64,000 nt of DNA from Albula goreensis (Eukaryota > Chordata > Actinopteri > Albuliformes > Albulidae): NCBI GenBank assembly GCA_022829145.1, contig CM040745.1, forward strand, positions 23,714,906 to 23,778,905, in the 5' to 3' direction. A model generated the notes under the pieces. It was not told the origin of the DNA, searched no databases, and saw only the letters and a list, made by a program, of their open reading frames with translations. The position numbers were made by a program, and so were the translations under genes. Within the stretch, counting starts at the first letter, position 1. Every line of letters begins with the position of its first letter. Below, one piece after another: positions 8,857 through 64,000 of this stretch.

Positions 8857-9776
8857 CTCTAACCTGTGCCTGTGATGGTGTTCCACAGGGGCCTCTAACC
8901 TGTGCCTGTGATGGTGTTCCACAGAGGCCTCTAACCTGTGCCTGCGATGGTGTTCCACAGGGGCCTCTAACCTGTGCCTGCACTGGTGTTCCACAGGGGC
9001 CTCTAACCTGTGCCTGCGATGGTGTTCCATAGGGGCCTCTAACCTGTGCCTGTGATGGTGTTCCACAGGGGCCTCTAACCTGTGCCTGCGATGGTGTTCC
9101 ATAGGGGCCTCTAACCTGTGCCTGTGATGGTGTTCCACAGGGCCTCTAACCTGTGCCTGCGATGGTGTTCCATAGGGGCCTCTAACCTGTGCCTGTGATG
9201 GTGTTCCACAGGGGCCTCTAACCTGTGCCTGCACTGGTGTTCCACAGAGGCCTCTAACCTGTGCCTGCGATGGTGTTCCACAGAGGCCTCTAACCTGTGC
9301 CTGCGATGGTGTTCCACAGGGGCCTCTAACCTGTGCCTGCGATGGTGTTCCACAGGGGCCTCTAACCTGTGCCTGTGATGGTGTTCCACAGGGGCCTCTA
9401 ACCTGTGCCTGCGATGGTGTTCCACAGGGGCCCCTAACCTGTGCCTGTGATGGTGTTCCACAGGGGCCTCTAACCTGTGCCTGTGATGGTGTTCCTCAGG
9501 GGCCTCTAACCTGTGCCTGCGATGGTGTTCCATAGGGGCCTCTAACCTGTGCCTGTGATGGTGTTCCACAGGGGCCTCTAACCTGTGCCTGTGTGTCCCA
9601 CAGGGGCCTCTAACCTGTGCCTGTGATGGTGTTCCATAGGGGCCTCTAACCTGTGCCTGTGATGGTGTTCCACAGGGGCCTCTAACCTGTGCCTGCGATG
9701 GTGTTCCATAGGGGCCTCTAACCTGTGCCTGTGATGGTGTTCCACAGGGGCCTCTAACCTGTGCCTTTGCTGGTGT
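8857..9776. repeat. 36-bp minisatellite, about 25 copies
   Basis: Tandem units of 36 bp beginning CTCTAACCTGTGCCTG, 25 full copies plus a partial one. One unit carries a 1-bp deletion (near 9139) and one lacks about 8 bp (near 9590). Units vary chiefly at TGCGATGG/TGTGATGG and CCACAG/CCATAG, and the two types often alternate, giving a partial 72-bp higher-order period. Because 36 is a multiple of three, long repetitive frames appear on the minus strand, but they are broken by the deletions and are not regarded as genes. Confidence 0.95.
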
Positions 9777-20190: not shown

Positions 20191-20222
<32 letters not shown>

Positions 20223-29200: not shown

Positions 29201-29517
29201 GACATTTGATAGTAAACCATCTTGCCACTACTTCAACTTGAAAGGTTACAAGACGAAAAATGCATGTCATAACAATTCCCGTTACAATACATATGGAGTC
29301 GCAAACAAAAACCTTAGTTTTACATTACTGCTGCGATTTCAATACATATTTTCCGGAATGCTTCAACTTATTAGCTAGCTAGCTAGCTACACTAGCATCT
29401 GAAGATTGGGTACAGCTATGGTTACATCGAACGTTGTTCAAATGACAAGTATTTGAATTGTTAGGTTAGCTAGCTACCTGCTATGTGGGAAACGAATGCC
29501 TCTGCAGCAAGGGACAT
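17444..29517 (-). CDS. mtx2: metaxin 2, ten coding exons
   Basis: Metaxin 2 is a peripheral protein on the cytosolic face of the mitochondrial outer membrane that works with metaxin 1 and the SAM complex in beta-barrel protein import and assembly. Coding exons read on the minus strand: 29478-29517, 28407-28454, 27520-27566, 23987-24059, 21335-21411, 20713-20805, 20103-20141, 19293-19418, 19036-19112, 17444-17654. They sum to 831 nt (276 residues plus stop), and every junction is GT-AG and phase-consistent. Recognised blocks include [13 protein letters not shown], the thioredoxin/GST-N-like part with NLPIQV and [18 protein letters not shown], and the GST-C-like part with [35 protein letters not shown] and [13 protein letters not shown]. 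The order matches human MTX2 (263 residues) throughout; the C-terminus is about 13 residues longer. Exon 2 has two in-frame acceptors 6 nt apart; the upstream one restores the AAAEPW seen in human. The start is the first ATG and matches the family. Confidence 0.96.
17940..18420. promoter_or_regulatory. candidate conserved element in the last mtx2 intron
   Basis: High-complexity sequence in the intron between the last two coding exons, with an octamer-like TGCAAATTACAAAG (18185-18198) and TCACCTGC near 18282. It is not coding in any sensible frame. Conservation untested. Confidence 0.3.
20191..20216. repeat. (CA)n microsatellite in an mtx2 intron
   Basis: Uninterrupted CA repeat within a wider CA-rich stretch (about 20170-20400), between mtx2 coding exons 6 and 7 and close to exon 7. 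Confidence 0.9.
24990..25340. promoter_or_regulatory. candidate conserved element in mtx2 intron 3
   Basis: A GC-richer, high-complexity block in the intron between 27520 and 24059, followed by AATTACATTATTCAAAGATA (Tcf/Sox-like). The frames within it match no protein I know. Role as an enhancer is inferred from composition only. Confidence 0.3.
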
Positions 29518-29824
29518 GGCGACAGACGACAAAAATCAATTTAGCACTGATTTGCAGAACACAAGCTAGGAACGTTTCTTTCCAGCAAATGCACCTGCAC
29601 CGCTTACACACAAGGTTAACTGGACCGTAGACTGTCGAAGTCGTTTTCTCTTCGCATTTAAATCGCACTTCCCTCTGATTTGTTTAGAAATCCAGTGTGA
29701 CACATGTAAGCCAATAACAGATAACACGTTGTCTGCGAAGAGGAAAGCAATTCACCGTTGTTGAAAGACCTCCTGCAAATATGCACATGGTGGCAGGCTC
29801 CCGTTTAACGTTATGTGTTTCACA

Positions 29825-29870
29825 TTATCACTTCCGGGTAGCGGTTTGATTTCTTTATGACGTAGCTTTC
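29825..29870 (-). promoter_or_regulatory. mtx2: mtx2 core promoter region with ETS and CRE-like sites
   Basis: About 310-350 bp upstream of the mtx2 start codon there is a CTTCCGG site (29831-29837; ACCGGAAGT-type ETS/GABPA motif on the other strand) and a TGACGTA site (29858-29864; CREB/ATF-like). Such pairs are common in TATA-less promoters of nuclear genes for mitochondrial proteins. No TATA box is obvious. The transcription start is not determined, so the promoter assignment is inference from motif and position. Confidence 0.4.
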
Positions 29871-30429
29871 ATCGCACATTTAATGCGGACTGATAAGTTT
29901 GAGTTAGAGTCGCAGAGGGTAAAGTAACCGTCAGCAAAATGTTCAGTTGTAGCAGCATGTCCACTGTTTCTGAAGTAAAATTCTCATTGCTTGCCTACCG
30001 AGCTAATTAGCTAATCAGATGGTGGTTAGCAGCAATTAAATCTTCATATGTGCACGGATATATTATGCATTTTTGCCACCAGTTTTTATTATGGCCACCT
30101 TTTACATACACAGGGATTGTTATTCTTTCTGGACTGAGTATTTAAGCCTCTTACAACATTGGCGTTTTGATAAATGTTAATCGATCCAATTACCTTAGCC
30201 TAATTCAGTTAAGAGAAAATAAGCTACCTGTATTATGAATGGACATAATGCTATAAATTGATCAAATGTGCTTTGAAGGGGAAGTGCTAATTGTTTTCAA
30301 CTCCTATTGTTAAATACGCTACCATATTTGCTAGATATTCAGTTTAAACTAGCAAATAAAAACACATTGGATGATGTTGAAGATATTATCCATAAAATCA
30401 ACCAAAATTACTGTGCTGTGTTAACATCT

Positions 30430-30500
30430 AGGAATGGCTAACCTTGGTCCTGGAGAACCACATAGGGTGCTGTCAGTCATTGTTACTCAACATTTAGTTC
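30430..30500 (+). repeat. dispersed fish repeat fragment
   Basis: CCTTGGTCCTGGAGAACCAC resembles the start of a widespread fish interspersed repeat. A related stretch in inverse orientation (TGGCCCTCCAGAACCAGGC) lies at 32371-32389. Family name not determined. Confidence 0.35.
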
Positions 30501-31235
30501 AAATGAAAGCAGTTTTTGTCAGATGTTCACATGGAATAGAATAGGGCTTAGGATCACAAATCAAGGTAGCTCACTGTTTGAGAATGGATGCTCATATTGT
30601 GTCAACCAGGACGGCAGCAATTTACTGGGTCTCCAGAGTTCTTCATCAGTGCAATAGGCCTAGGTCCCTCCCCACCTGTAATGGTTGTTCCATTATTTTC
30701 CATTTCCACTGGGATTCTTCTTTGGCCCAGCACAGACTGCGTAGTGTCTCTCCTCCAATTATTTACCTCTCTTCACATGTATATAACTCTCCACTGGATC
30801 CACAAGCTTATTGCTCTCTGGAAGCTACCCTTTTCATTATACAAGACGCAGAAAATGGCCCGTCGCCACCTTTTCTAAAATTGTAAGTTTGCTAGGGTCT
30901 GACGTCACTGGTCCCTTGCCAGTCTTATGACATCATACATCACACATAACAAGACATCTGAAGCTGACTGTGATTAAGGCAAGCGAGATTGTTGTATCTC
31001 TTGACTATTAGAGATGTGAACTTCCCTCTTATGTATTTAAACACCAAATTTGCAATGCTTGTGGTGCTATCAGAAAAGATAAGAGGGACCATGGCTGAGG
31101 GCACAAAGACTCCTTTGCACCTCTTAGTGCAGCATTTCAGTACCTTATATTTTAACCTAAGGACAGTGGTACAATGAATTGGGTTTGGCTCTTGCATGAA
31201 GTTGTATGCATGGTGACTTTTGATATATGTGTGAT

Positions 31236-31342
<107 letters not shown>

Positions 31343-32089
31343 GGTCAATCACATTAAGGTTGACACATTATATATATTGGACATTTATTTCTTAAGTGAT
31401 GGTGCCAAATGAGAAAACCTTCATGCTTTGAACAGTACTGAAATATTGTCTCTGTGTCAAAGAGAGCAAGCTCAAACTTAATACAGCACCTCAAAGTTAA
31501 TACTGCTAGTTTATTTCTTAAAAGTTAATGTCTGTTTTTGAACAGAGGAGCAGTGCAGTTTAAATTTAAAGATGCTCATCTCCAGCAATATTAGACAATA
31601 ACAGACAATACAATATTAAACCTTTCCAGATGATACAGATTTTATTCATGTAGTATTCATTTCAATATTTCGGCATTTCCATGGATTTCACCTCTATTAC
31701 TTTGGATAATTCCATTGACAGTTGTTTGACAAAGAACGTTTGTGTTTTACAGTTATATGAAACATATTTAATACACTGGGGCCCTATGGAAAGACAGTCT
31801 TAGTGCATCTTAATTTGTGTTTAAACAGTGGACTGAAAATTGACATTACTAGCATAATTATTTTTAATGAGGAAAAAATGCACCCTTCTCCTAATTTTGA
31901 TCTAAATCAAAATTTAGGCTTGTCTGTTGCATCTAAACCTACCTTTTTGACTTCCAGGAAATCAGTGGACAATGTTTCAAATTGATCCAATCACTATCAT
32001 ACAAGATGAGTTAATATATAATTAATATGTAATTAATTATTATGTATGTGAGTCATTTCTGTCTATCTTTTTAATTCTATGTACTTACA

Positions 32090-32200
32090 GCGGTGTAGTA
32101 TACTGTATTGTTTAGGGAGTTTGGTTTATAGTCCCATGGTTGCAGGTTCATTTCCCAGGAAGGCTGCAGTCAGCAAGGTACTGTGAAAAGTAGAACAGGA
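32090..32200 (+). mobile_element. degenerate tRNA-type SINE head
   Basis: CAGCGGTGTAGTATACTG followed by a region with B-box-like GGTTCATTTCC (32146-32156) and CAGCAAGGTACTGTG resembles a common fish tRNA-derived SINE head. It is well diverged and without a clear tail. Confidence 0.45.
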
Positions 32201-32831
32201 ACCCAGTGTCATAAGCCAGTCTTGGAGTCCTGCAGTGCACAATGTTTAAGTGATTAAGTCACTAATTGGCTAAAGAGATAACACACTTTCTAAGTTTCTA
32301 AGGTCTAAATTGGTTATTGATTTCATAGGTCTGAATTGGTTGCTTAAACTGAAAACAAAAACATACAATGTGGCCCTCCAGAACCAGGCTAAGCTGTCTC
32401 TCGATGTGTGCCTCATACCTTATGTACCTTTTGTACCCCAGGGACAGCTGGCACCCTGATGCATGTGCTGTGGGAATGCCCTGAGCTGCACAGATGTTGA
32501 ACTCAGGTAATTAATGTGATTTATTTTTTTATTAGCAAGTACCACCCTCTGCATTCTTATTTTTCTCATTTTAATGATGTTTCTAAATATATGCTTACTA
32601 TGTATGTGTGTAAAAATGGCTAATGTTGCTGGTTTTGTTTCTACCTAAAGCACAGATTCAAGACCTGCACTTCTTTGATGAGTGTGGGGTTAAGCCTGAT
32701 TAATGTCCTTTAACATATTAAATGTTCCACTCACCTAAAATTAATATATATGGTTAAATCAGACTTTAATGAAATATATGGAGGGCCCATTGAACATGCT
32801 CATAAGTACATTAGGAAGTAGGCTGTTATGC

Positions 32832-32960
32832 TGCAGCCTTTAGTCTAAGGCTAAGATACATGACTGGACCTTTGAGGTGTGTGGTTCAAGCCCCCGTATT
32901 GCCCCAGTCTAGCAAGCACACCACTGCTGTTGGGCCCCTGAGCATGGCTTTGGTTAGCTT
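32832..32960 (+). mobile_element. second, older copy of the same SINE family
   Basis: Plus strand: head GCAGCCTTTAGTCTAAGGC, B box GGTTCAAGCCC at 32883-32893, then CTGTTGGGCCCCTGAGCA, all alignable with the minus-strand SINE at 56855-57078. The tail is lost, and a short inverted repeat follows at 32968-33006. Confidence 0.65.
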
Positions 32961-32967
32961 TATGAAC

Positions 32968-33006
32968 TTACCTTACAGGTGGCTTTTCAACCCACCTGTA
33001 AGGTAA
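32968..33006. repeat. short inverted repeat after SINE remnant
   Basis: CTTACCTTACAGGTGG and CCACCTGTAAGGTAATG form a stem of about 15 bp across a 7-10 nt loop, at the end of the older SINE copy. It may be part of that element or a separate fold-back fragment. Confidence 0.6.
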
Positions 33007-36000
33007 TGTAGAGCAGAACCCCATTAATGCAAAATTCAGTTACCTGGATATCCAAACAGGTATAGACCTGAAACTATTATTCTGGTTATATCTTATTCAT
33101 TTAAAACACTCTTGCAAGCATTAAATTGGAAGCCTTACTCATATTATTCAGACAAAAAAACTTGTATAGTCAAAATAATAATCTTACTTACAAAATAATA
33201 AACTTAAAAATAATAAACTCCAAAAAGCCATGGGCTTATTGCTAAAGAACAATATTTGAGAAAATTAACAAGATGGAAAAGATTTACTTTACCTGAATAT
33301 GATTACAGAGCTCAGTTTTCTGAGTCAAATGATTGGCTTGCCAACTAGGGTGCAAAACAGATGCAACTAAATAGAAAATGGTGATAAAATGAAATTCAAT
33401 AATTTCTGTCATAATCTGCATGTGTAGGAGAAAAGTGGCATTTTCTGCAGCATGATTACCAAAGATATACACTATCTCTGCAGACTGCAACAAAACACGT
33501 TTTTTAACTTGGACTGCAGCTTCCCCTTTAACAGATCCACGCTTAGCTCATACACTCATTTTTCTAACCAGCACTTTTCTTCATATAGATTTTGGTTTCT
33601 ATGGAATTTACAAACATTACAAATCTCCTTTTGTCATTATTCTGTATATGCCAGTTATGCTTCATTACATTTAATTTTTGTGAGTAAAAGACAACTCCTG
33701 GTTCCAAGGCATTTAGATTTCTGGGGTGTTTATTAAATAGCTACCATTCATTTTAATAACTATGACTTTAGGATTTGGGGAATGAGTTACCCTATATGTG
33801 TAAACGTAAACGAAGGACATATTTAAGCATGCAATTGTGCAAATATGTTAATGTCTTTAGAGACATCATGTATACATATGCATACTATTGGTGAGAAAAA
33901 AACTTCAAACATGAGATGTGTAACTCCTTTATGAAGTAGGGAAAGTTATATATTCAACATCTTAAAGGATTACACAGTTTTTTCATTGTGTATTAATGCT
34001 GCACTACACCTTTTATGTGATTTAAAAACTATGAATTCCATCAATGTTAATGAATAATCTAGTCCATCCGTCCCCTTTGTGAAATGAGTCCAGAGGTAGA
34101 TGAATCTGCTCTCTCTGAAAAACAAGTCATATAGGCCATATCAAGACCTTTTTCTGTGCTATTTTTCTCAGATTTCATTGAGCTGCAAGCTCTGTATAAG
34201 TTCTTTACTTTCAGACCACTAAATGTATATGCTAAAATTAAATTCATCCAGATACATTCACTGTTTAAGCAGAAAATGGGTTTGATTGGACATTCACTTG
34301 CACAGTCAATCCTTTGACCTGAAAACAAACAGCAACTTACAAATGTATTTACTAATAAGGATAGTTAATGATGATACATTACCAGATAGCACACAATCTA
34401 TTCACATAAAATAATCTGTTTCATATGTGCAGGGTTATCTCTATATGCAATACTCACTCATTCCTCATGCCTGGCAGATATTTTGAGGTGAAGTAAGGTG
34501 TTGATAAAGTCAAGTATCTGCAAAAAGCTGTTCTGATGAGTTTCATGGAGCACCTGATGTTATCCACCAAATGCTCGAATGACAATCCAGTGATTGGACA
34601 AAGTTTAGAACTAAACTGACAAAGTTTGGAGCTGTTCTTTGGTTGCAGATCAGATCTGAACAGGTCCCCATGACCATGGCACCAGATGTGCACAGAAAAG
34701 GTGCAATCAGTGATTGAACTATAAATAACAGAATGCTAACAGCCACAATCTTTTAATGGCCACTAACCTCCAAACTGTATCTCATCTTAGTATTTGTACT
34801 TTAGTGAAATACTTAATCTTTGAGTGTATATTTTGCAGTTTGCACAAAGAAAAGAGATGTTGTAAGCCAAACGTATTATGTTTTCCAAGGATTCACGGCA
34901 ACTGCAAAGCAAAATTCCTTACAGCCAATTTTTAAAAACATTTTTAATTATCAAGTATAACATCACTAGAGAAAATCAGTTTACTGTTTTTCATTTATGT
35001 AATGCCTGTTATGAATGTCAATATTACCAGTCCAATTTTATCTTGGTTGTTTTTAATGGACTTTGATGTACTATCTTACGAAAATAGCTTGACAACAAAT
35101 GTTGGTCTTGTAAAACAGACAAGGTCGCAAAACTACTGGACGTGATCACTCTTTCATCAGATGTATTTTGTCTTAACATAAAATTAGTTTGAATTTTATT
35201 ATATATGTAAAAAATAGCCAACATCCTCTCATTTCCTGCATTTTTTCTGCCTCATACACCATAACTCCCTGCAGTGTTGATCCAATTCAAATGATTATCA
35301 AAGCAGTGTAGACAAGCGAGGAACAAACGTAACATTTCATACGACAGAAATAATACGTTGGCCCATACTGTACTGTATGAACAGGCCCATGCTATACATT
35401 TCAAGTTATATTGATTTAGATTTGTGAAGCTCTGCAGTGAAATTCGATTATCACTAATGAAAATATATCGCTATTTAATGTATTAAAGAACCACAACCTG
35501 AAGCTGTAGTTTTCATGTTTTTATTTTGTATGTACCTGAATCCCTCATTGGCAAAGATTATTTGAAATTCTGAATATTGCCTCTTGCCTGCAACTGCTAA
35601 ATTCCAGCTTTAAGTGAGGCAGGTTTCATACAAAAAGCAAACGATCTGTGTTAGTAGGGTATCAAGATGTGGGCGTTGAAGAAACTGTTGCATTTTGCTG
35701 GTTCCTAAACTGAGAAGTTTCCAAAGTGACAGTCTACCAACAAATGTGCATATTGTTTGTTGCTGATTGTCTTTTATTATCTACACAGCAGGTTACTGAA
35801 AAGAACGATAACCGATATATAAGATATTTCTCATATATTTCTCATATAGCCTATCAGTTTTTTTTTAAGATGATACACGTGGTTAACGTTTTCGCTTTGG
35901 CGTCTGCCAAATTCAGTTCCAGTTGTTTTAGGCCTATTTAAAATATTTGGAAGAGTTAATTGGTGAACAACGTTTTGATAGTTAAATACATAAATAACAC

Positions 36001-36628
36001 ATATATAAATAAATAAGCTATATATAGGACACAATCTTAGCATAATTGAATATGTCCTTCATTCCAGATAGATTGTATTACTTTTGGCAGAGGGGAAATC
36101 TCAAGTTATTTCGCAAATATCGAATTTATCACTAGAAAATCGACTTGTTTTCCAGGGCATGGGTTGAAGGTTATGAATGTTGTCTACTCTTTTGGTGCAT
36201 GCATTGTGAAGATGAAAAAATACTTCCGCAATCGTCACCTGAAAATAATTGTGGCTACATTTAACTTTGTTGGTACGATTTATTTAATTGTAGGTCCAGC
36301 AAAGGTGTTTGCTTGAATGGTTGAAATATCTGTTATGGAAATACGCCTCATCCGCAAAGGGAATGTAATGCCGTCAATCTTGTCCCACACGTTGCACGTT
36401 ACTAGGAACAATAAAATCCAAGAATCACAGAACCAGTTGCGGTTTAATTAATGAACAATGTAAGAAAATCTGAATGTGGCAGTGGGTGGAAAAGACGTGG
36501 TGGATGTTCATTTATTGGTCTCATAATTTTTGTCGCACATATCCCGCAATGCCCACAATGACAGCGGGTTTCCTATGTATTTGTCGAAGTTTTGCCCCTC
36601 ATTTCGAGATCGGTGTCCACAGTTCAAA

Positions 36629-42012: not shown

Positions 42013-42937
42013 CTATGCACCATATGTTACACTTTATTTATTTGTGTCAACAAATTTTCTTAACATAACAGGGTGAAAAAAAATTGCGATTGTGAGTGGT
42101 CAGGCCAGTACAGTAACAAGCACCAAAGATCGCACAGAGCATATCAATGCAGCTGTCATTGAGGACTGTTGCAGAATTTATGGCTGCCTTGCTATGGTCG
42201 TAAACGCCTTGGAAAGGAATGAAAAGAAAAACACTTCTCAGAACTTGCCACCCTCAGAAGTGTAAAACAGTCCAAGCGTAGGAGGATGGCCAGCAAAGGA
42301 ATTCCCTACTCCGCAACTTCTCTTGCAAGAATTGAAGTGGCGATTATAAAACGAGCTCTCATCGTCCAAACCACTTCTGATGCTGTCGATTGCCGTTTAC
42401 ACAAATGCGAAGAAAACACCAATATTAACAACGAAGAGGATTTTTTGTCTTGTTGCAAACGTGGGACGTTTTAAATTGAATTTCGAGGGGATTACGGAAT
42501 CACCAAATTTTCTTCTACTCGTCCTTTTTTCACTCTGACAATATTTTGTTTAATATCCCGTTCTGTAATTATGCGAGTGATGTTTTCAAAGTAGTCTGGT
42601 AATATATTCTTGCTGTTGCGGCATAACCTGTTACAAGTTATATCTTAGATTCTGGTGTAGGTATACCAGGTCGAACACTTTTAAAGGGATGTTTATAAAG
42701 ATTATACATGACAATGTACTTATTGTAAATATATGCTTATTATAAAATATACCCATTTTATTATTTTGAAAATAATACAAGCGTGTATTGTGCTGTTACA
42801 TTTGGTACTTAAGTCTGAGACAACAAAATGCATATCTTTCATCACTTGTGTCCATATTTGTATAAAAACAACTGAAATAAAAAAATCACTATTCGTCAAA
42901 TATGTTCTGTGCTCATTTAAAGACAGATATATCTTAC

Positions 42938-43003
42938 CGTCTCTTGTGTTGTTACGGGCATTTATTTTCCTCTTCACGGGTTCTTCATTACAGTCACCCA
43001 GAT
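42938..43003 (-). other. candidate upstream leader exon of hoxd3
   Basis: A 66-nt block is bounded on the minus strand by an acceptor-like TTTTAG and a strong donor GTAAGAT. Joined to the acceptor at 40680, the one open frame in the block (reading ...NEEPVKRKINARNN...) reaches a stop before the hoxd3 ATG, so it would be leader sequence rather than an N-terminal extension. No known domain is seen. Support is from splice signals and position only; transcript data would be needed. Confidence 0.35.
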
Positions 43004-44792
43004 CTAAAACATGGAAAAATTAATTTACCAGACAGGACTTAAATGTGTGTTTGTGCTCTGTCGTTACTCATGCATTTTGTTCTAACCATATATGTGTGAG
43101 GTGAACGTAAGATTTAGTTAATTTTTACATAAGAAAGCATCTGTTTATTTCATATTTTATTTTAAGAAGGCAATGAAATACATGTATACCCTTTTCTCCA
43201 TGCCTTAATCAGGTCCCAACTCTCTTAACTTTAATCATTAACCCTGCTGCTTCATTCCTGACGTGTGTTAAAGTTACATACATTTAAATATTTGCATTAA
43301 GCTAGTAGTTTATTTTTATTCGCATGGTCACTACTTATCCCTTTATATATTATTAGATAATAGAAAGATACATTATCATGGATTCTAGTTAAGCAGTTAC
43401 CGTTATGGAACAAATGATCACAAATAGAACTATACCCAAAAGACAGCTGGCTAAAATATTTAGCAGTCATAAGCTTTTTGCGTGACCTTTGGCTCGTTCA
43501 GCAATAACTCACAGATTAATGAACAACGAACGGGAGGGCTTCAAGTAACCCAGAATGCAACCCATCGCAGAACTTGTCTTCAGTCTTTTTATTGCAAAAC
43601 GGGGCCTCGAAATTTGGGACACTTAAAAAAGAGAGAAACTTCTTACATTAGATGCAAAAATGTGATGAGTTGTTCGGATTGTTCTATGGCTATTGAAATA
43701 GATCGATTGAATGAAATAATATTGTGGCTGTGTCAATTTATTGTATTGTTATTTACATGGAAGCAAACATGAGTTGCAAGTAAGGGAATATAATTTTAGA
43801 TGAATTGGGACGATATCCCTACTGTGCATTTATTGGATCTATTATTTCTTTAGCATGATTCTCTATTCTGGTACAACAATGGCTTTCGCCTACGCATTGG
43901 TACGGTAAGTTGATATAGCCTATATAACAGCGCAATGGGTAGTTACTTGCGTAGCCTCACAAAACCGTTCAGGAAATGTCTCCGTGTCGATCCATTTTAT
44001 TTGTCTCGCTCCTTTTGTCTCTGTGTTAGATGCTGTCCCCAGCCATGTTTTTGTAAGTCGTTCTGGAAAATAGCTTCTGTTTGCTTAAATATAAATGTGA
44101 ATTAGAATATATTATTTGTATTTATAGTATTAATATCCAGACAACAGTAAAACTCTGGTAGACAGCAAGCGTGAAATAAAGTTGTATTTATAAGGATTTA
44201 TTCATTATTTCCCAAATTTTATAATTTTGTCAAAGATATTATCAGTAGTCATGAAAATTGTCCAACAAAATGAGTCATTCTGTTTGACTAACTAGATTCT
44301 GCTTGTTCATGTCATGGGCCTGAAACCTTTAGGCAAGTGATTTTTTTTTCTCTGAAAAAATGGACTTTTTGTTTTATTTCGTATTTTATTTTCCAAATCT
44401 TTCTCTAATCGGGCATCGCCAATTAATGGAGACTGTTTGTAGTAATGGTTTTTACAGTTTGACCTTGTAATTTAGACTACTCATACAACAATACATTTTG
44501 AAGCAAATTTAATCTGTAATTTTGGTAGTGTACGAAAATCAACGTAAGGCACAACTTTAAAATCATTTGGTGAACAGAGCTAGCTCTAAAACATTTATCT
44601 CAGTCGTGAACAATGAGAAATGTAGATTAAGCATATCCAACGATGCCAGCCGTACGGAAAGGACGATTGCATCTTAGCTTGTCTTTCATTTTTAAGTTGA
44701 CCTATAAATATTGAGTGGCAAATGGTCTTGTACATAGGACTTGAATCAGTCGGAGAACTAGACTAACTAGTAATAAGCACAACAGCAATACT

Positions 44793-44818
44793 GCTACTAC
44801 TACTACTACTACTACTAC

Positions 44819-44856
<38 letters not shown>
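44793..44856. repeat. (CTA)n(ATA)n microsatellite
   Basis: Trinucleotide tract in the hoxd3-hoxd4 interval. Confidence 0.9.
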
Positions 44857-44857
<1 letters not shown>

Positions 44858-45247
44858 ACTTTTAGGAGTTGTAAGTTTCGAATTAGGAGTTTAAATTGCA
44901 GTTGATTTAATTAAGATTTCATAAAGATCATGTCAACCTTCCCCTTACAAAATTATGTCACAAAGTGGGACTATCTAAAAAAAAAGCATTTTTAAAAGTA
45001 AGATATATATTTTTACATGGAAATTCAAACATTGCAAATCAAACAAACATCACCCACGGAATGTGATGATATCAATTTATATATCTACATATAACAATGA
45101 AAGTTTACATCGCATAAATCACACCCGACCATCCGCTGATGATAAGGCAACAAATTAATATGATTTACGATCTTAGTCGCATGTATGACAACATGAGAGG
45201 TTATTTTGGTTCCTTCTTCTTCCCTTTTTATTCCTTCTCATTTTAAT

Positions 45248-45354
45248 TTTTAATCAAATTAAATAGTAAGATCAGCTACATAACACTTACATTACAATAT
45301 ATATGTATAATGTAAGTGTTATGTAGCTGATCTTACTAATTAATTTGATTAAAA
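45248..45354. repeat. near-perfect 47-bp inverted repeat (hairpin)
   Basis: Left arm 45248-45294 and right arm 45308-45354 are reverse complements with a single mismatch; the loop is 13 nt. The arms contain GTAAGATCAGCTACATAACA. It could be a small fold-back transposon (MITE) or the product of a local inverted duplication. An (AT)n tract follows immediately. Confidence 0.9.
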
Positions 45355-45355
<1 letters not shown>

Positions 45356-45398
<43 letters not shown>

Positions 45399-45424
45399 AT
45401 ATATATATAGATATATATATATAC
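45356..45424. repeat. (AT)n microsatellite next to the inverted repeat
   Basis: AT run with a few C/G interruptions that are themselves palindromic; it adjoins the right arm of the 47-bp inverted repeat. Confidence 0.9.
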
Positions 45425-48400
45425 TTATATATATCATTACACATACTTGACATGTGTAATGTGTATACTACGTCTGCTGGTTGGTGCTGGTATGTCGAAT
45501 GTCTGCTTATTCAAAAATTTGCGAAATGTACTTGATGGGTATATCTGGAATGAAATCATTTTAAAAAATCACCCCTCTTTTAGCAGAATTAATCTTAATT
45601 CTCGAAATGTGTATTAAAGGTTGCATCTTTCAATTGCTTACCTGTGAATCAATTCATCATAAATCCCTGCTTCTCAGCCTTAATTTCTTCGCCTGCAGTC
45701 ACTAGGATATATCCTTCACCCTTTGTCTGCTGATAATACTGTCCTAAACCTGATCTTGCGGTTTTTCAGACATTTCCATATTCCAATGCAGACAGTATTC
45801 CCGGTAGAATGGAGACAGACTCACACTCAACTACCAATAAAAAACGAATACAGTTGATACCCTTTTAAAACATGGCTGGCTATCACCCACTCATTGATAA
45901 AAAGGTTACAGCATCAAGTCTAATTTTATTGTCATATTTAATTGTGGTGGTCGTTCGAAAACTCTTGACAAATAAACGCACCCCTTAAAATATAAGCATA
46001 TTTGTTCACGTGATCTTAATACCAGATTATCTATATTAAGGCTAGTCCTGCACACAAAGCCTTGCGTGGCAGTCAGTTTATAGGTGACTAAGTGAATGTG
46101 CACATGTGACTCTATCACATTTTCAAGGATCTCATTGACCCTTAAATGAAAATACAACATATCGTGGTTATCACAATTCATTATGTTTTGCACTTTTTCT
46201 GGATATCTTATACCAAAAAGGACTAATAGTAGCGAGATTGGGAGAGCATTTCTGATCCATGTTTGTATTTGTTATAAAATGTTGTTTCTTCCATATTAGG
46301 AGAAAAACTGCGATGATTCTAAAATATTGAACACATTTTAATTTTTTCAGAGTGACTGGTAATATTTGTATGAATTTCCAAATGGCATCTGTTGTAACAG
46401 CATTACACAATTACAAATGAAGATCTGAAGAAATTAATATTCCCGGAAGGTCGCATTTTTGTGGTTTTTCCATTCATTTTATCGATTAACATGGTAGATG
46501 AATGCTTTATTTCTGCAACAAAATTTCGTTTTCAATTGTGAAATTAGTTAAACCTGAAAATACTTATACAAAGATATATTTTGCAGTCCTTGCCGTAATC
46601 CTTATGCTTCTCTTCGACAGTGATGGGTATGGCATGGATTCAAAAGAAACACATCAGATTATTCCAAATCATACTTTGTCCTGCTGTACTTTCATATGTC
46701 AACAGAAAAGGTAAGAATACAGATGTGGACGTGTAAATAACATGAATGTCGGTTCAGTATGAAAAATGATGTTCCAAGAGAACAGTGACTTCCCAGCACT
46801 ATAGCCTAGACATCTTGTTTTTTTGTCCATCTATGAATTATGTTACATTTATTTCCAAACACGTTCTGAAAATAAATAGCATGAAAGTTAATTTCAACCC
46901 CAGTAGACAGTATGACTGAGAAAAACAAGAGAATCTTCATCAACTGCGGGAGCTTGATCGAGCGGGAATCTGTCTTTGGGAAAGGATGCAAGACTTCTCC
47001 CGTAGCAGCATATGTTCATTGGGCAATAAAAATGAAAGATTTACAGCCTACACAGGCCCCCCATCAGCCTCGCACCCTTTCAGGATTTACTGGGAATGAT
47101 TTAGACAAGAACAAGGCAGACAACTGTCAACCTGGAAGAGCTCCCCCTCTTTTTTTAAATGAAAATGTAATTATTATGTACTAAAAATGCTTTTATGTGG
47201 CTGCAATTTGAATTCGATGCTTCGCGATAACGTTTGACTCTAAAACTAAATTTGAGTTGGTACGATAATTAAGAAAAACTACAGATACAGGATATATGCT
47301 TGTACCGTTTTCTGTGTTTATTTCGTCGAATTATACATGCGTATTTATGTGTCAAATAAAAACGTAGGTCACAAAAATACAAAAATAATATGACATTGAA
47401 ATTGTTCTTGCATAGCTGTATTTTGTTAAATTAAGTTCTTGTCTTGCAGATAGGCATACACTCTCACCCTCTGAAACACTTTCATATCATTAATCCAAAA
47501 TATGACACAAAATATATTCAGCTGTTCACAGGTCTTGCAATAATCTAATGAGATTTCTAGAATCTGACTATAAATCAAAGGCCCTCGCATGAATCCAAGA
47601 AGAACAGGCAATAGTAGACCAACAAATACTCTTATGTTCTTCAAAGAACAATGTAAACATTGTAAAAATTCAAGAAACACCATTCATGCCATTGCGAGGT
47701 GCATGAAATATTAAACTCATATATACTTGCAAAAGCTTTAATCCCAAACAACGCTATTGTTTATTTACCTTCCATTTGATTTTGAAAAGAGGATTTCAGT
47801 GGAAAAGGGTCATCATATATTATAACCCATTCCAACTTCAAGCTGCCAAATGGAAGCCCAGGCATATGTATCAAAGGGCGCTATTTATCAAATTCGAGTC
47901 AGATAAGTTCAATTACGTCTTACTGAAAATGAAACTTAAACGTTTACCTACCAAGATTCCATTCGTTCAGATGGTATACGAAAGTGCTGGCTACAGTAGC
48001 GCAGGATACCAAACTGTTTGTTTATATTTTTCTTTGGATCTCTTCAGTTTTCAAGTCTGATAATAGTCCTTGCGATTAATGACGACGCTGTGCTTCCAGG
48101 GGACATACTGCATTAATTATTCAGAACATCACGTGGTTAAATAAAAATAAATAAATACAGCTTAAAGGAACTGTATTGTCCCCGAGTGATATCTTCGGAT
48201 GCAGGCAACGCAGTTAGATATACGTTAAAGTAGCTGTCTTGAAAGGAAAAGACAGGTTCTGCAAACAGCTGGATATCAAACATGGCCGATTGTGAGCTAT
48301 TGTGAGAGTAGTGGTGGTGTGTTCGGTGCAGTGTCATTGTAAGTGGCACTGGTTATGTCTTTCATTTATTTAACTCAGACCAGAACGACGTCCAAACCCA

Positions 48401-49699
48401 CTTTGGACCAAGTGCACTCAATCCATTGCAATTCGCACCTTCTCTGACGTAGAGTTATACAACATTTTACTTTCACGTTTTCTTACATTTTGGACAACAA
48501 AAATGGAAACATACCTGGCGGTTTAACGCTTTCCCTCGTACTGTCAAAAACAGGTTTGAAAATGAAAGCATATGAAATATAACCAACCACATAGTTGTGA
48601 CTAAGACAAACAAGTATCAAGGCCTTCTATAACAATAAAAACAGTACGAGTGATTCTGAGAAGAGATCAATTATTATCCGTATTGTTTGCATTCACAAAT
48701 ACTGGTGAGGAGCACCAGTAAAGCAATTTTGAAGTAGAAATACATGAGGTAAAAAGAAAAAATACATCTCAGCAATTTGAATGCATACATACATACACAA
48801 ATACATACAACACAATGTACAATCCACATAGGTTTCATACCTGTATGGCCTGACAAGTGTCATAATACCGTACGGGGGCGCACAATACAAACATGCGCGC
48901 ATACACACGCACGCGTGCGCGCGCACACACACGATGAGTTCCATGGTTTCATGGTGAAAGAAAAGTTGACTGTAGATCTGTGCAAAAGGTGTGAAATAAG
49001 TCTATGACAAATCTGAAATCTCAATAGGGAAGACGGAGAAAAATCGCACTTGAAAAACGATACTGCATGTCTTCCCTTACCAATTACTGGAGGTGCAAAC
49101 AAAGATAAAAATTAGTTGTTTCTCCAATTTTTCTTTTGTGCAGGCTACCACACCTGCATTATCTTATTTGAGCTCTCCAGTGACACAATGTAAATCTTCA
49201 GTGGTTATCCACAGATTTGTTAAGAAGTAGCCAGTTATTTATTATACACGATTTTGTAACATCAAATCACTAATAATAAATCAATAGTATTTACAAATAT
49301 TACATAAATACTATCGTGGTGTACGACACTATCTTGGCAAGAGGATAATATAGTTTGAAACATTAATGAACAAAGGAATATCTTCATTTGGAATACTTTT
49401 TTGGGTAAGATTTCTTACCTTGTTTTAATAACGGCGAATGATAAGACATACATATGTAACATTAAATGGGCAACACATTAATTAAATTTCTGTAACAGAG
49501 TCCCTATGGTACATGCAAGTAAAACGTTCATTAAAACAGTAGTACATAACGCCTGTTTACTGAAGAATGAGAAGCATTTTATAGGTAACCTAGTTTGTTG
49601 ATACCGATTTTAACCGTACAATGCACTCTGTTGAACGAAATTCATTTACAATAGCTGAATGCAAGTCGTGTCTGCACTACAAAAGACTGTTCGTCCTGC

Positions 49700-49720
49700 G
49701 GGTCAAGGGTCTAGAGGTCA
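49700..49720 (+). promoter_or_regulatory. cluster of nuclear-receptor half-sites 3' of hoxd4
   Basis: Three half-sites in a row: GGGTCA (49700-49705), a one-mismatch GGGTCT (49707-49712) and AGGTCA (49715-49720), giving DR1 and DR2 spacings. It lies 1.6 kb past the hoxd4 stop, where a retinoic-acid-dependent neural enhancer is known for Hoxd4 in mouse and zebrafish. Homology to that enhancer was not tested. Confidence 0.35.
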
Positions 49721-51285
49721 GCGCTTGCGGCTGAAAATGTGAAAATGTGTCCCCTACATGAACCTAGCTGGGTAGCTTTGTCGAACTTCAGTAAAAATAC
49801 CTTTTCAAAGTCTCAACGTGAAGACATCAATTACAAGACATCTTCACTTTGTGTGAACTATTTGTGAAAACAATTACAACAAAAATGCCAGAACTTCTAT
49901 AGACAAGAGTATATTTCTTTAATATCAGGACTTGAACTGATTTGCACATATGTTTTTGCACAGAAGTTACCCTTAGGGATGACGAGGAAGCAATTTTATT
50001 TCGAGACAGGCGTATGCTCACAATAGCTACGAGATTGATTCATTAGATAGATCAATATATCTAAGGTAAGGCTTGCAAATATGTTAATATTGTGTGTGTA
50101 TGTGTGTGTGTTACTTGTATTAAAAGTCCGGAACATATGTTCAACATAAAAAAGGAAATCAGAAATTGACAAAGAAATTCATGTTGATTCTCTCATTTAT
50201 TGTATGAAAATAATTCAGTCATTGATAAAAGTGCAAGAAAAGGCTCTTTGAAGAATAATTGTGTTTCTGTTGGTTTGTTCATTTTACAACACTTTATATG
50301 AATTCATAATTATATTAAATAAATAAAACGATAACACACATATGTTATACAAATATATTTAAATTGTACGAGGACCCTTACTCTTTGAAATGTCATAAAG
50401 AAGAAACAATTTTCAACATTTATTCTGTTTACAAACATGTCAATAAAACTTGTATAACTGAGTGTAAGTAAGCAAATACTGAGTCACCAAACAAAAGTTG
50501 CTTGTTCCCCAACATATTAAATATTCATCAAGAGTTTGAGTTAACGTTTTGAACTGCATGTATATTACACAGAAAAGTGAAGCGAATAAAATGATATACA
50601 CATCCACACATCAAAACACAGGCAAGTACGCTTTCGAACTTGCGTGTGAACAAACAAATGGCACATAAAAATAAACCAATGCTACATTAAACTGGTGTTT
50701 TTATATGTTTTGCCTAATTTATCATGTACAGTTTTATGCATGTAATCTTCTAAAAAAGATTTTAAAAATTAATGAAATGGCACAACAGTGGCAATTTCAT
50801 ATGCACGAAAAGCTTCATATTCCATAAATTGCTTATGTAATTTAAATTAACGTATCAATTAACAGTCAGCTACCCTAGATCAGTTCAAAAGTACGTGAAA
50901 TAAGAGGGTCTCAATAACCTTCTTTTAATAAAACAAAGATAACCTCTCATTTAGGGCGAACAACATTGCTTCAGGTGATTACTGCCATTTTAAAAAACCT
51001 ATGGAATACTGTGCTTTTATATCTTGCGATCTACTGTACCTCGTTGCAGCAGGTGACGATTCAGACATATCTTCACTGTCACCTAAGTGTTTTTATGGGT
51101 CGAAGATGATGGCGATTCAGTAAATCCTCTAGCTTCTGGAGACTGTATGCTGGTCAGGCTGGGTTCAGTTTCATATCAAATGCCAAGAAAAAATGGTCAT
51201 GAATGAAGACCATTGCGTTGTCACACGAAACATTGTTATTAAGTCAGTCGCTGTACATTTTAAGTGTGAGGGGTCTCCCCTCTTT

Positions 51286-53368: not shown

Positions 53369-53467
53369 TGAAGTTTTTGCATCGACCATATACTCCCCTA
53401 AAATCGAATCTGTGACCGTGATTTTATCACACAAATTCGGTTCTACAGGGTATATATAGACGACGGA
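53369..53467 (-). ncRNA. mir10b: microRNA precursor mir-10b
   Basis: The minus strand encodes the miR-10 hairpin. The 5' arm mature miRNA is 53430-53452, with seed ACCCTGT and the A at mature position 12 (GTAGAACCG) that distinguishes miR-10b from miR-10a. The 3' arm (53392-53413) begins ACAGATTCGATTTTAGGGG and pairs with it across a short loop. The flanks match vertebrate mir-10b closely: CTATATA before the mature strand and ATATGGTCGATGCAAAAACT after the star strand. The position, just upstream of hoxd4 and between the group 4 and group 8 loci, is the conserved HoxD site. miR-10 represses Hox and other targets and is probably co-transcribed with hoxd4. Confidence 0.97.
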
Positions 53468-56854: not shown

Positions 56855-57078
56855 TTACATTACATTACTGTCATTTAGCTGACGCTTTTATCCAAAGCGA
56901 CTTACAGTTGATTAGGCTAACCAAGGGCCAATCCCCCCTGGGAACAATGTGGGGTTAAGGGCCTTGCTCAGGGGCCCAACAGCAATGGTGTTCTTGCTGT
57001 GGCTGGACTGGGATTTGAACCACCAACCTCAGGGGTCCCAGTCATTTACCTTAGCCACTAGGCTATAGGCTGCCCCCC
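56855..57078 (-). mobile_element. tRNA-derived SINE with TGTAA-repeat tail
   Basis: On the minus strand the element starts with a tRNA-like head: A-box-like TAGCCTAGTGG and B box GGTTCAAATCC. It continues through a body containing GTTGGGCCCCTGAGCAAGG and ends with GTCGCTTTGGATAAAAGCG and a short (TGTAA)n tail. That tail type is the LINE-2-clade 3' end shared by eel UnaL2 and UnaSINE elements and by many fish SINEs. A 7-bp CATATAT flanks both sides (56849-56855 and 57079-57085), a likely target-site duplication, so the insertion is fairly intact. Confidence 0.8.
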
Positions 57079-59770: not shown

Positions 59771-59849
59771 CTCAATGCACTCAGTCAGACAGTTTCACAA
59801 GTATACTGAGTATTCATTGGTGGAGAGTATGAAATGCCAGTGCTCAGCC

Positions 59850-60280
59850 TTACATCTGTGAATATACAGGAACACAATTAAATCTATCGAAGCTCGATGA
59901 TCGACATCCGACTTCACACCTCTGTTGTGCCATCGACATTAAAACGGTAACACTGAGAGAGGAGACAGAAAGGATGGGATTGAGACGCTTTAGCAGCAGT
60001 ATGTAGTGAAAAAAATCGCTTGGGAAATCAGGAAAAGGGGCCATGAAGACGTTAGACTCTTGCACATGACCAGTGGCATCCAATGACAAGCGATAGTGGC
60101 TCATAAAAAGGTCTATTACCAAGTTGTAAATTGTCCTCAAACAAAAAGGAATTTAGGTTGCTGCAAAACCTCTCGGTTTTGCGCATAATGGTGAATGGCA
60201 TTCCCTTTCCAGAGTGAAAGAAAGTGAGCTCTAAAATGAAGAAAAATCCACGAGCAATGAAACACTTGTGAGCTCCATCC
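59850..60280. promoter_or_regulatory. probable conserved non-coding block upstream of mir-10b
   Basis: About 430 bp of high-complexity sequence without microsatellites, in a neighbourhood otherwise full of them. It includes a TTTATGAGCC (minus) cluster near 60095 and ends in a GC-richer part at 60170-60220. Open frames here are not recognised as protein. Position suggests a distal promoter or enhancer of hoxd4; conservation is not tested. Confidence 0.35.
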
Positions 60281-61811
60281 GATTACAACTTCCATACAAC
60301 CCAGTAACAGAAAAAATAAAAATAAAAATTCAGTTACTATTCGGCATTCAGTACTCTTTTACACCAATGTTTCATAAAGTGTTTGGATATAAATAAGGGA
60401 TTATCGTTAAAACTGTTTTGAATATGTCCTTCACTTCAGCCACGTCTAGCATTCCATCAGCAATATTTTTCAGGGTGGGCGGGTGGCGGTGTAAAGGTAG
60501 AGAAAAGTCTATATCGGTATTGATTGATCCAAATGTAATGTGTATTTATTTATCTGAAATTTTATTTGAGGAAAATTGGTAACGAAACTAGGGAAACAAA
60601 TTTTACTCAACAACATCACATTTTGAGGTCCATTAAAAACAAGAGTAAGTGTAGAGAAGATATAACGAGCAAATGTAGGCCTATATTGAAATATTAAAAT
60701 GCAGAAATAAAATCGGCATTTCAAGTTATTGAACTAACCTTCAATAAACGGGAGACTAACGATTAAATGTAAACCTGATAAAAGCTGAATCACAAGAAAA
60801 AGAAAAAATAGCAAATTCATTGCATTGATTATACAAAAATTATATATAGTGCATTTAAAATGAGACGTTCACTTTTTTCCAGAGGTGTATTATTGTAGAT
60901 GCGAATACTAAATGTGAATATTGAGATCACAATTAAAATTGTTATTAAATTGTTTTCACTTATTTTGTAGTCAACATGGTACATATGGTCTGTTGCAAGA
61001 TAAATACCGCTGTCTCTTATTCCTTCATTTACCTTACCAATCGATATGACGAATTAGCGTAAATATTACAGATTTCAAATGGAAATAGTTTTTATGGAGT
61101 TGTTGCACTCCGAAACACACCATTTCAAAGTAAAAATACACGGATACATTATATCTCTAAACAAGCACTTCTTCTCATTCAAATGATCCCATACTTATTT
61201 AACACCAAAATGCTATTTAATACAATCACGATAAAGTTAAACAAGGGACACAGCAGGTCAAACAATATTCACATACTAAACTAATTTTGTAGAATTAACG
61301 TCATTTATAGACTAAATGATACTCCGATTAAATTTTAAACAACATTTAGAAATCAGAATTTAAGAACCATAAAGAAAGTATCTACGTATCTACTTGTCGA
61401 ACAAATGTATTTAATGTAATTAAATTAAGTGTCTCGTGCATTTCTATTTAAATTACTTTAACATGTCAAAAAATTAAAATGTCTTTTTCTCACATGTAAT
61501 TATTTTTCTCTGTAACCAGGATGTACCTGCGTGTTGCTTTTCAATTTGATGACTTGGGAAACATCAAAATATGAATTCTTCATGAAATTCTGCGTTGTTT
61601 TTCAGTTTGGATTGCTTGATTGCTGGTGTTTTGTCACATTTACTAACACAACTGAGAAATTAAACAATGCCATATAAAAATCTTGCGTTGCTACTTGGAG
61701 TAATTAATAATAAATGCGGTTGGCCAAACTTCGGATTTGAGAGGGCAGCTTGATAAGAGGAATTGAAATTCGATTACGTGATTTGTAAGCAAACCTATAC
61801 TTGAAACAGTC

Positions 61812-62205
61812 TTGAGATCTTCTGCACGGAAACATCTGAGCGGGAGATGAGCTCTGATTTAAGTATTCTGGTTTCTCGCCAGCATTGCTACTGGACGATT
61901 TACAGTCAGAGTATTGTAGCAGCTCAGGCCCTTGCAGAGTCGTAAAGAGTTTCTGTCTTGGTAAATTATAGTTTGCGTAAAATTTAGAGCAGGCGCAATG
62001 ACACGTAATTTCGCATCGATTCGGCTGATAACTTGCATTTGGCAATGCTGCAGTGCGTTATGATAAAATTCTTCTACTTGAGATTTGTTGGACACTCGCC
62101 ACTGTATACAGCTCTCTATCGAATAACTGGCAACATGTTTGGCTATATACTGATTAGGCCTATTGAATCTATTAATGTGCACAGATTGACAGATTAAAAA
62201 CTTGG
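61812..62205 (-). pseudogene. hoxd8: decayed exon 1 of hoxd8
   Basis: Minus-strand translation gives a clear trace of Hox-D8: SKFYANYNLPRQKLFTT, then ELLQYSDCKSSSSNAGE and YLNQSSSPAQMFPCRRSQ, against human HOXD8 AKFYGYDNLQRQPIFTT, ELVQYPDCKSSSGNIGE and HLNQSSSPSQMFPWMRPQ. The PBX-contact motif FPWMRP has become FPCRRS without an indel. An upstream piece, QVEEFYHN (VQEFFHH in the family), lies in another frame, so a frameshift falls near 62045. Near 62195 a string resembling the SSYFVNPL codons is interrupted by a stop. No exon 2 homeobox is detectable downstream. The relics sit where hoxd8 belongs, upstream of mir-10b and hoxd4. The gene is non-functional as a Hox factor. Confidence 0.85.
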
Positions 62206-64000
62206 TATACAAGGTATCAACTGCACATATAACGAAAAGACAGATTTAGAAAATGAAATCATTCCACGATTACGTCTTATATACAAATTTTCATATTTGA
62301 CTTAATACGCATTACAAATAATACATGACATATTCTGATACATACTTGCATGTAATACTACTACTACTACTACCACTAATAATAATAATTTACATTTTTT
62401 ATTTAATAGAATGATATTCCTTCTGCATTTTAAGAAGAAGCAAAGGACGCATACAGATTTTTAAGGTTCATGAGGTTATCAAATAAATGAAACCGCGCCA
62501 GTTATTCATGTTACGCCTGTAGACAACCAAAACAATTTCCTTTCTTACTGCGTATCAAAATATTGATTATTTCACGATTTTCAGTGAGTTGCAGACCTAC
62601 ATCAATATTGATAACATGTTAAGCCTAATAATCACTTTCTGATAAATAAAATACGACAGATAAGACATAACTTGTACCACAATTGTCTTTCTAATATAAC
62701 AATTAGAAAACACTGGAGTGTTGGAGAGTGAGCAGATACGAGCAGATAGTCGTATTCAAAACCATTTTTGGTGATAATATTTAAACGTATTTGTTTCCAA
62801 AATCGATAGAAATAATAATGGCTCAAGGGATACAATGTTAATTTGTTCAATTTATTTATTTTTGTGACTCCTTGTTATAGTTAATTTGATTGGTGATTGC
62901 ATACTAGTTTGGATCATAAACAACTTTACAATCATTCGTATGAAAGCTTTCTGCAATAAAGCCTTGTTCGGCGTCTGTGCTAACAGATATATAAATAATT
63001 CGTTATATAACAGTTCCTCTTAGCTGACAGGTAAATTAATTAGTTTAAGACATACATTTACCTGAAAAGGGACTTCCTCATAATGCACGTGAATATTCAT
63101 GTATTTTGAAGTTAGAATATTATTGAATATTATCATTCGTTGTTTTAATGACAAAATGGCTGGAAACAGGCTACCATTTTTATCTTTCACAGAAATGACT
63201 ACCACTGCATACGTGTCTAGTAATGTCAAACATAGATCAGTCATCAATTATTTCAGGCCAGTCTAACAAAACAAGCCAAAAGCTCAAGACTACCTACTGA
63301 ACCCCATATCAACAGTTGGGAAACGCCACACAGCCTTCTATGGTACAGCAGCGCCCTCAGGTGATCATGTGGGCTAACGTTTATTGTCAAAGATCAGAGT
63401 CACAGTCAAGAGAGGCTGGTTCGAAATGTACGCCCAGTTCTAATTCTACTAATGTGTGGTAATGGCTATGCAGTCGTGAAGTTAAACAACCTTTCATATA
63501 AAGTTCACATTTAAATTTGACAGTGAAACACTTTACAACAGGTAATTTCAAAAAACAGTCACCGTAGATGGGGAAATAGTGTTGATGAATAAACGTGACT
63601 TTTGAGGCGGCTGATTTCCTATTTGGTGCACAGGCAGATAATTTATCGACCAGACACCCTGTACAAAACTGTCTGAATTTTTGTTTGTCAGCAACAGACA
63701 CGTGCACCCAAATAAGACGGTTTCAAAGACCCGTACAATTGCAGCCCTCATCTATAAACTCATTTAAACCAGACGTCTAGCCGTCTCTATGGCTTTATTG
63801 GACTGCATTTCTTCCTGCTTTAAACTAATTAGGCCCGTAGGTAGGCTAGAGCTTTGACAATATATCGGGAATCCATGCAACACCTTTCCCAGTCACAAAC
63901 ACATTTTCCCAGTATATGTTTGGGCTATGGATTCTATGTCGATACTAAAAATGATGAACGGTTCATTCAGTAAATAACACATTTAAATGTTGCTCTGGGA
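62206..64000. other. upstream flank of the hoxd8 remnant
   Basis: No gene is supported. A high-complexity block at 63310-63850 contains several homeodomain-type sites (TTTATTGGAC, AAACTAATTAGG) and may be a conserved element from the hoxd8-hoxd9 interval. hoxd9 itself, expected at still higher coordinates, is not in the window. Confidence 0.4.

Follow-up and report, generated by a model that had tools for sequence, protein, structure and literature searches.

Why does one part of a Hox coding exon remain readable in a copy that can no longer make a Hox protein? The question is raised by a relic on the minus strand of a HoxD cluster of Albula goreensis, within an analysed window of 64,000 nucleotides (C5:23714906-23778905). 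A sequence-only reading of this window had recognized the relic as exon 1 of hoxd8, and this identification held when the intact exon was used as a query against the A. goreensis assembly (932 Mb, 208 contigs), the one genome compared here. The search gave six matches (seven candidates were scored): the intact hoxd8 on C6, two hoxc8 genes, two hoxb8 genes and the relic. The latter aligns to query residues 55-138 at C5:23776717-23776974, which is 61812-62069 of the window, with 62% amino-acid identity over 84 residues and an E-value of 1.9e-23. In a DNA comparison of the two HoxD clusters, the block at 61775-62082 is 77.3% identical to intact hoxd8 over 309 bp (E 7e-62), and its portion at 62082-61812, read on the minus strand, aligns with the 3' part of the intact exon 1. 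We refer to this portion (61812-62082, minus strand, QVEEFYH ... MFPCRRSQ), which is defined by its similarity to the gene on C6 and by the codon model described below, as the preserved 3' half. The decayed 5' half occupies 62083-62228 of the same strand, starting from the aligned position of the start codon. The earlier count of about 130 recognizable codons was too generous, as about 90 are clear and the first 50 or so are only weakly traceable.

The assembly contains at least eight Hox clusters (on C3, C5, C6, C12, C14, C19, C20 and C22), as counted by reading the matches from 150 scored out of 560 homeobox candidates. Two of them are HoxD clusters, the one in the window and one on C6, with collinear similarity across d3, d4, mir-10, d9, d10, d11 and d12; the C6 cluster additionally carries d1, d8 and a match at the place of d13. 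The relic lies between d4/mir-10 and d9, collinear with the intact hoxd8 of C6. In the window, the mir-10 precursor is found at 53385-53459 (minus strand), upstream of hoxd4, and the 3' element of a UnaL2 LINE at 56865-56918 (minus strand). The intact gene has an exon 1 of 138 codons (C6:7224144-7223731), running from MSSYFVNP to FPWMRPQ, followed by a short intron and a homeobox exon at 7223480-7223199. Homology to hoxd8 at the syntenic position identifies the relic as hoxd8b, the pseudogenized genome-duplication partner (ohnolog) of the intact gene. Because an intact hoxd8 is present on the duplicate cluster, which was out of sight of the sequence-only reading, the gene itself is not lost in this fish. 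Only its duplicate is.

The eight clusters and the presence of d1 and d8 point to an elopomorph: hoxd8 and hoxd1 are reported to be retained solely outside clupeocephalans (PMC9774920), and the butterfly fish is described as having neither (PMC4166920). The homeobox matches are spread over contigs C1 to C25; a haploid number of 25 is given for tarpon, and likewise for arowana and zebrafish, compared to 19 for the Japanese eel (PMC9730501). The hoxd1 gene is also missing from the C5 cluster. A blastn search of window positions 20001-36600 with the C6 hoxd1 region as the query revealed no trace of an exon; it returned one 44-bp block at 29475-29518 and one 27-bp match at chance level. Neither match lies in an exon, and a hoxd1 remnant visible to blastn in this interval was rejected. 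Large blocks common to both HoxD clusters are found outside the mapped exons between d3 and d4 (42131-49864), the longest reaching 597 aligned bp with 78.6% identity at 47775-48369. A tandem repeat with 25.7 copies of a 36-bp unit (93% matches) occupies 8857-9776 within a locally G+C-rich stretch, the unit being a multiple of three bases in length. Elsewhere in the genome, hoxb8 on C19 has an open exon 1 and a single-base gap in an otherwise well-kept homeobox (C19:24512597-24512853); this gap could have arisen very recently or be a mistake of the assembly.

As assembled, the relic cannot make a Hox protein because it lacks an in-register start, an intact hexapeptide and a splice donor, and a homeobox is not detectable. 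A frameshift had been placed near 62045. A one-base shift is present in the assembly, but its position is different: the register is kept to 62057 and the other frame is followed from about 62054, so that both the alignment and the codon-model alignment put the one-base gap at 62050-62060 (minus strand). The proposed N-terminal stop is correct in one sense and incorrect in another. The ATG at 62228, which aligns with the start codon, runs into a TGA three codons on, but if one reads in register with the QVEEFYH codons, no stop is met as far back as 62245, nor is there an ATG. The decay of the hexapeptide from FPWMRP, as in intact hoxd8, to FPCRRS is as previously described (61815-61832, minus strand). 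Immediately beyond the exon end, AC has replaced the GT splice donor that follows CTCAAG in the intact gene (61809-61810, minus strand). Taken as they stand in the assembly, the lesions in frame, start, hexapeptide, donor and homeobox are those of a pseudogene. An open frame of 117 codons at 62057-61704 was considered as a candidate coding sequence and rejected, as its first ATG occurs just before the hexapeptide and omega, the ratio of nonsynonymous to synonymous change, is about 1.

The absence of a recognizable homeobox exon at the relic, also part of the sequence-only reading, was reproduced. In the interval where the exon is expected (60213-61774, minus strand), the best alignment scores 232, compared to a mean of 215 and a maximum of 259 for shuffled sequences (p 0.13). 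When the intact homeobox exon was randomly mutated to 0.3, 0.5, 0.66 and 1.0 substitutions per site, it scored 875, 513, 389 and 190, respectively. Because copies mutated to 1.0 substitutions per site score only 190, such a copy would be just as invisible in this interval, and the test does not distinguish deletion from very deep decay. We also looked for a complete hoxd8 homeobox elsewhere that could splice to the relic, a finding that would have reversed the diagnosis. Among the matches listed for a homeobox-exon query, hoxd8 of C6 has 100% identity and the next ones, two hoxc8 genes and one hoxb8 gene, have 76-84%. None of the 135 matches listed (150 of 232 candidates were scored) other than that on C6 is a hoxd8 homeobox, and a second one elsewhere in the assembly was rejected within the scope of this list. 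The only hoxd8 homeobox listed belongs to the intact gene, and the relic does not have the homeobox exon joined to exon 1 that makes a working Hox8 gene.

The time at which coding function was lost was approached by comparing the relic with working genes at the codon level. As two pairwise methods disagree on the omega between the relic and intact hoxd8 (0.35 by NG86, 0.84 by YN00), we used a likelihood model of 87 codons in six sequences with the hoxc8 and hoxb8 pairs as outgroups. Omega was estimated at 0.877 on the relic branch and 0.087 in the background (lnL -1225.10). Fixing the relic branch at 1 costs 0.01 log units (lnL -1225.11), whereas a single omega on all branches costs 9.0 (lnL -1234.09; 2dlnL 18.0). 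The profile for the relic branch has a 95% lower bound of 0.30 and is not bounded above by any value tested (up to 4) if no clock is imposed, and extends from about 0.4 to above 1.5 with a clock. A model with a free omega on both d8 branches (M3) hit a bound, with an omega of 4.48 on the near-zero intact branch, and was left out. The differences between the relic and intact hoxd8 are distributed over the three codon positions as 17, 10 and 20 in 80 codons. The third-position share is hence 43%, versus 50-67% in six working HoxD exon-1 pairs.

An omega of 0.88, which is not different from 1, is what a pseudogene that has lost coding constraint displays, and our best estimate is that most of the relic branch passed without such constraint. 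Even if omega were as low as its bound of 0.30, some 25% of the branch would be unconstrained, as follows arithmetically from the profile. These values argue against the fairly recent loss that had been suggested, although they do not date it closely. Recent gene conversion of the 3' half from intact hoxd8 was rejected, as the relic keeps codons that align with hoxc8 and hoxb8 at a place where intact hoxd8 has a two-codon gap.

The two halves of the exon have fared very differently. The 5' half is collinear with its counterpart and has nearly the same length (146 bp versus 148 bp in intact hoxd8). Its global score of 141 exceeds the maximum of 119 obtained with 3000 unrelated 146-bp pieces of the window (P 0.0003), with the limitation that the place had been chosen by the best local alignment before its global score was evaluated. 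In the local search, p is 0.045 when 1489 bp are covered and 0.005 when 318 bp are. Fitted over three indel rates, the distance from intact hoxd8 is 0.45-1.0 substitutions per site for the 5' half and 0.2 (the lowest tested) to 0.3 for the 3' half, and no tested distance fits both. The ratio of 5' to 3' scores is 0.34 for the relic against intact hoxd8. The hoxc8 and hoxb8 duplicate pairs give 0.88 and 1.09, respectively, and when the five other exon-1 copies are compared with one another, all ten values lie at 0.63-1.15. Against the two hoxc8 genes the relic gives 0.39 and 0.39; against the two hoxb8 genes it gives 0.84 and 0.64, which is inside the range of intact genes, in comparisons where all scores are low. 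The 3' half of the relic was scored six bases short at its end, which lowers the 3' score and works against the reported contrast. If a single dead gene decays neutrally, its two halves are expected to change at the same pace. Within the limits of a single genome, the codon model and the contrast between the halves support the proposal that part of the exon is better kept than plain decay predicts.

The rate of change of the preserved block is less informative. With omega set to 1, the relic branch is 0.165 substitutions per site long, and lengths of 0.25 (2dlnL 4.4) and 0.33 (2dlnL 13.4) are rejected. The pooled synonymous distance between the HoxD genes of C5 and C6 is 0.66 (0.62-0.69; 12 exons, 1607 codons), half of which amounts to 0.33 per branch if the branches are equal. 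However, a relic branch of 0.3-0.35 with an omega of about 0.5 fits equally well. The synonymous distance between the relic and intact hoxd8, 0.38 (0.23-0.62), does not fall below the value for d4 exon 1 (0.38) and is near that for d10 exon 1 (0.42). At fourfold-degenerate sites, 6 of 20 differ in the relic block versus 206 of 539 in the comparison, so that these sites alone reveal no slowness. The rate by itself does not decide among the readings.

The similar block does not stop at the exon boundary, but continues for 36 bp into the start of the former intron (61775-61810, minus strand, from the two-cluster comparison), where an exact 11-mer is found at 61785-61775. Tested as a whole, the intron is no better than shuffled sequences (p 0.88). 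Exact runs of at least 10 bases cover 117 bases compared to 75 expected (P 0.014), which represents mild clustering, and the longest run in the block, 16 bases, is ordinary (P 0.76). With its 77.3% identity over 309 bp, the block falls within the range of 25 collinear non-exon blocks (median 79.4%, nine of them at least 200 bp long) that were hand-picked from the 60 rows of the two-cluster comparison and some of which may belong to untranslated parts of exons. The selection left out every row that overlaps a mapped exon or mir-10, as well as non-orthologous homeobox matches and the relic itself. Two such collinear blocks outside the mapped exons flank the relic, at 63572-63889 upstream (77.1% identity to the C6 cluster) and at 59828-60212 downstream (80.7%).

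The explanation we favor, with a probability of about 0.5, is that the relic is an early-dead duplicate in which a putative regulatory element, now noncoding, has preserved the 3' half of exon 1 as an "exonic remnant" of the teleost genome duplication. Its derivation from a coding exon of a duplicated gene and its inability to code agree with this class. According to this model, hoxd8b would have lost its coding function early after the duplication, and most of it would then have decayed freely. The 3' half of exon 1, perhaps together with about 36 bp of the intron, would have remained under moderate purifying selection at the DNA level. Probably, a putative cis-regulatory element either shared its sequence with the coding exon or was recruited from that exon, and the element may still act on the neighboring HoxD genes (d4 and d9) from the d8 position. 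An absence of codon constraint, combined with slow change confined to one half, is the pattern expected if a regulatory element overlaps a former exon. Of the two alternatives offered by the sequence-only reading, the retention of part of the exon for another reason, such as regulatory sequence, is therefore the better supported, judging from sequence comparison. The constraint itself is suggested by a pairwise contrast within one genome and by distant paralogues, and the proposed regulatory action is an inference, as are its targets and age.

The contrast between the halves could also have arisen with no regulatory role at all, if the exon was truncated stepwise. The 5' half would have been the first to lose its role, perhaps because a new start arose, whereas coding would have continued for longer in the 3' half and the homeobox. 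The homeobox would then have disappeared, with neutral drift of the 3' half ever since. The lower bounds of omega on the relic branch (0.30 without a clock, about 0.4 with one) leave room for coding constraint on as much as about two thirds to three quarters of its length, but the best estimate is near 1. Moreover, this scenario requires the homeobox, normally the most conserved part, to be lost completely at a later time, and an exon half to persist that has no use once the homeobox is gone. We consider it unlikely, though a serious contender. Plain neutral decay of a middle-aged pseudogene, in which the homeobox was deleted and small indels scrambled the 5' half, has a somewhat smaller chance of being correct. 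From the relic to the next conserved blocks, C5 is indeed shorter than the intact cluster by about 540 bp downstream and 880 bp upstream, and the branch of 0.3-0.35 with an omega of about 0.5 would suit this explanation. What speaks against it is that the 5' half keeps its length and a detectable similarity, and that the two halves share no tested distance. Since the comparison covers one species, stepwise truncation and neutral decay both retain a share of the probability.

It is improbable that the remnant owes its retention to being transcribed, within a noncoding or antisense Hox RNA, and not to enhancer activity. Hox pseudogenes can be transcribed, as reported for eel psiHoxD3b (PMC3286462) and medaka psihoxa2b (PMC5831782), but the ancestral splice donor of the relic is gone. 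An assembly error that broke a working hoxd8b is the least credible explanation and a very remote one. The frameshift amounts to one base and on its own may be such an error, and the homeobox gap of hoxb8 on C19 may be an assembly slip of the same genome. However, the other lesions are independent of the frameshift: the homeobox is undetectable, the start, hexapeptide and donor are gone, and the 5' half has decayed.

Former exons kept after genome duplication have been published before, and the relic is a further case, located inside a Hox cluster and displaying a clear contrast within one exon. The exonic remnants of Dong et al. 2010, as summarized in PMC3342275, are likewise pieces of coding exons of duplicated genes that stayed conserved after coding loss. 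The relic differs in that it lies in a Hox cluster, is known from sequence and is conserved relative to the duplicate in the same genome only. The one exonic remnant tested by Dong et al. drove no consistent expression alone, according to the same summary (PMC3342275). The recycled regions described in De Novo Genesis of Enhancers in Vertebrates (PMC3206014) resemble the relic in being former exons of duplicated genes that have a broken frame and are retained in fish, and they did drive expression.

Hox duplicates in decay, or Hox remnants, are reported in eel (PMC3286462), butterfly fish (PMC4166920), medaka (PMC5831782) and caecilian (PMC4470032). Medaka psihoxa2b is, like the relic, a teleost Hox duplicate that turned into a pseudogene and kept part of its N-terminal coding sequence, but it is transcribed and has 138 N-terminal residues and the hexapeptide intact, whereas in the relic the 5' half and hexapeptide have decayed (PMC5831782). 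The caecilian psiHoxD12 remnant also marks a lost HoxD gene at its expected place, although in an amphibian (PMC4470032). In the passages of the literature that the search covered, no hoxd8 remnant is named in tarpons or eels. Three Hox pseudogenes are reported for the eel, psiHoxD3b among them (PMC3286462), and another of the three could be hoxd8b.

A further-reaching version of the favored explanation is that the 3' half of hoxd8 exon 1 is of dual use, encoding Hoxd8 and serving as a putative HoxD enhancer, and that the dead duplicate would expose the enhancer alone, kept for most of the time since the teleost duplication. There is a precedent for regulatory sequence in Hox coding exons in the enhancers of Hoxa2, which, unlike the relic, is a working gene (PMC3342275). 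In the recycled-region study, the matching exons of other vertebrates had no enhancer activity (PMC3206014), which speaks against assuming dual use, and we regard it as a tentative and rather doubtful extension.

In summary, the dead duplicate allows two layers of selection on a single exon to be told apart: selection on the protein has ceased, and the conservation that remains points to regulation. Should the 3' half prove active, it would reveal a hidden regulatory element that lies in the hoxd8 coding sequence or derives from it, and it would provide a clean test of why parts of a Hox cluster outlast their gene.
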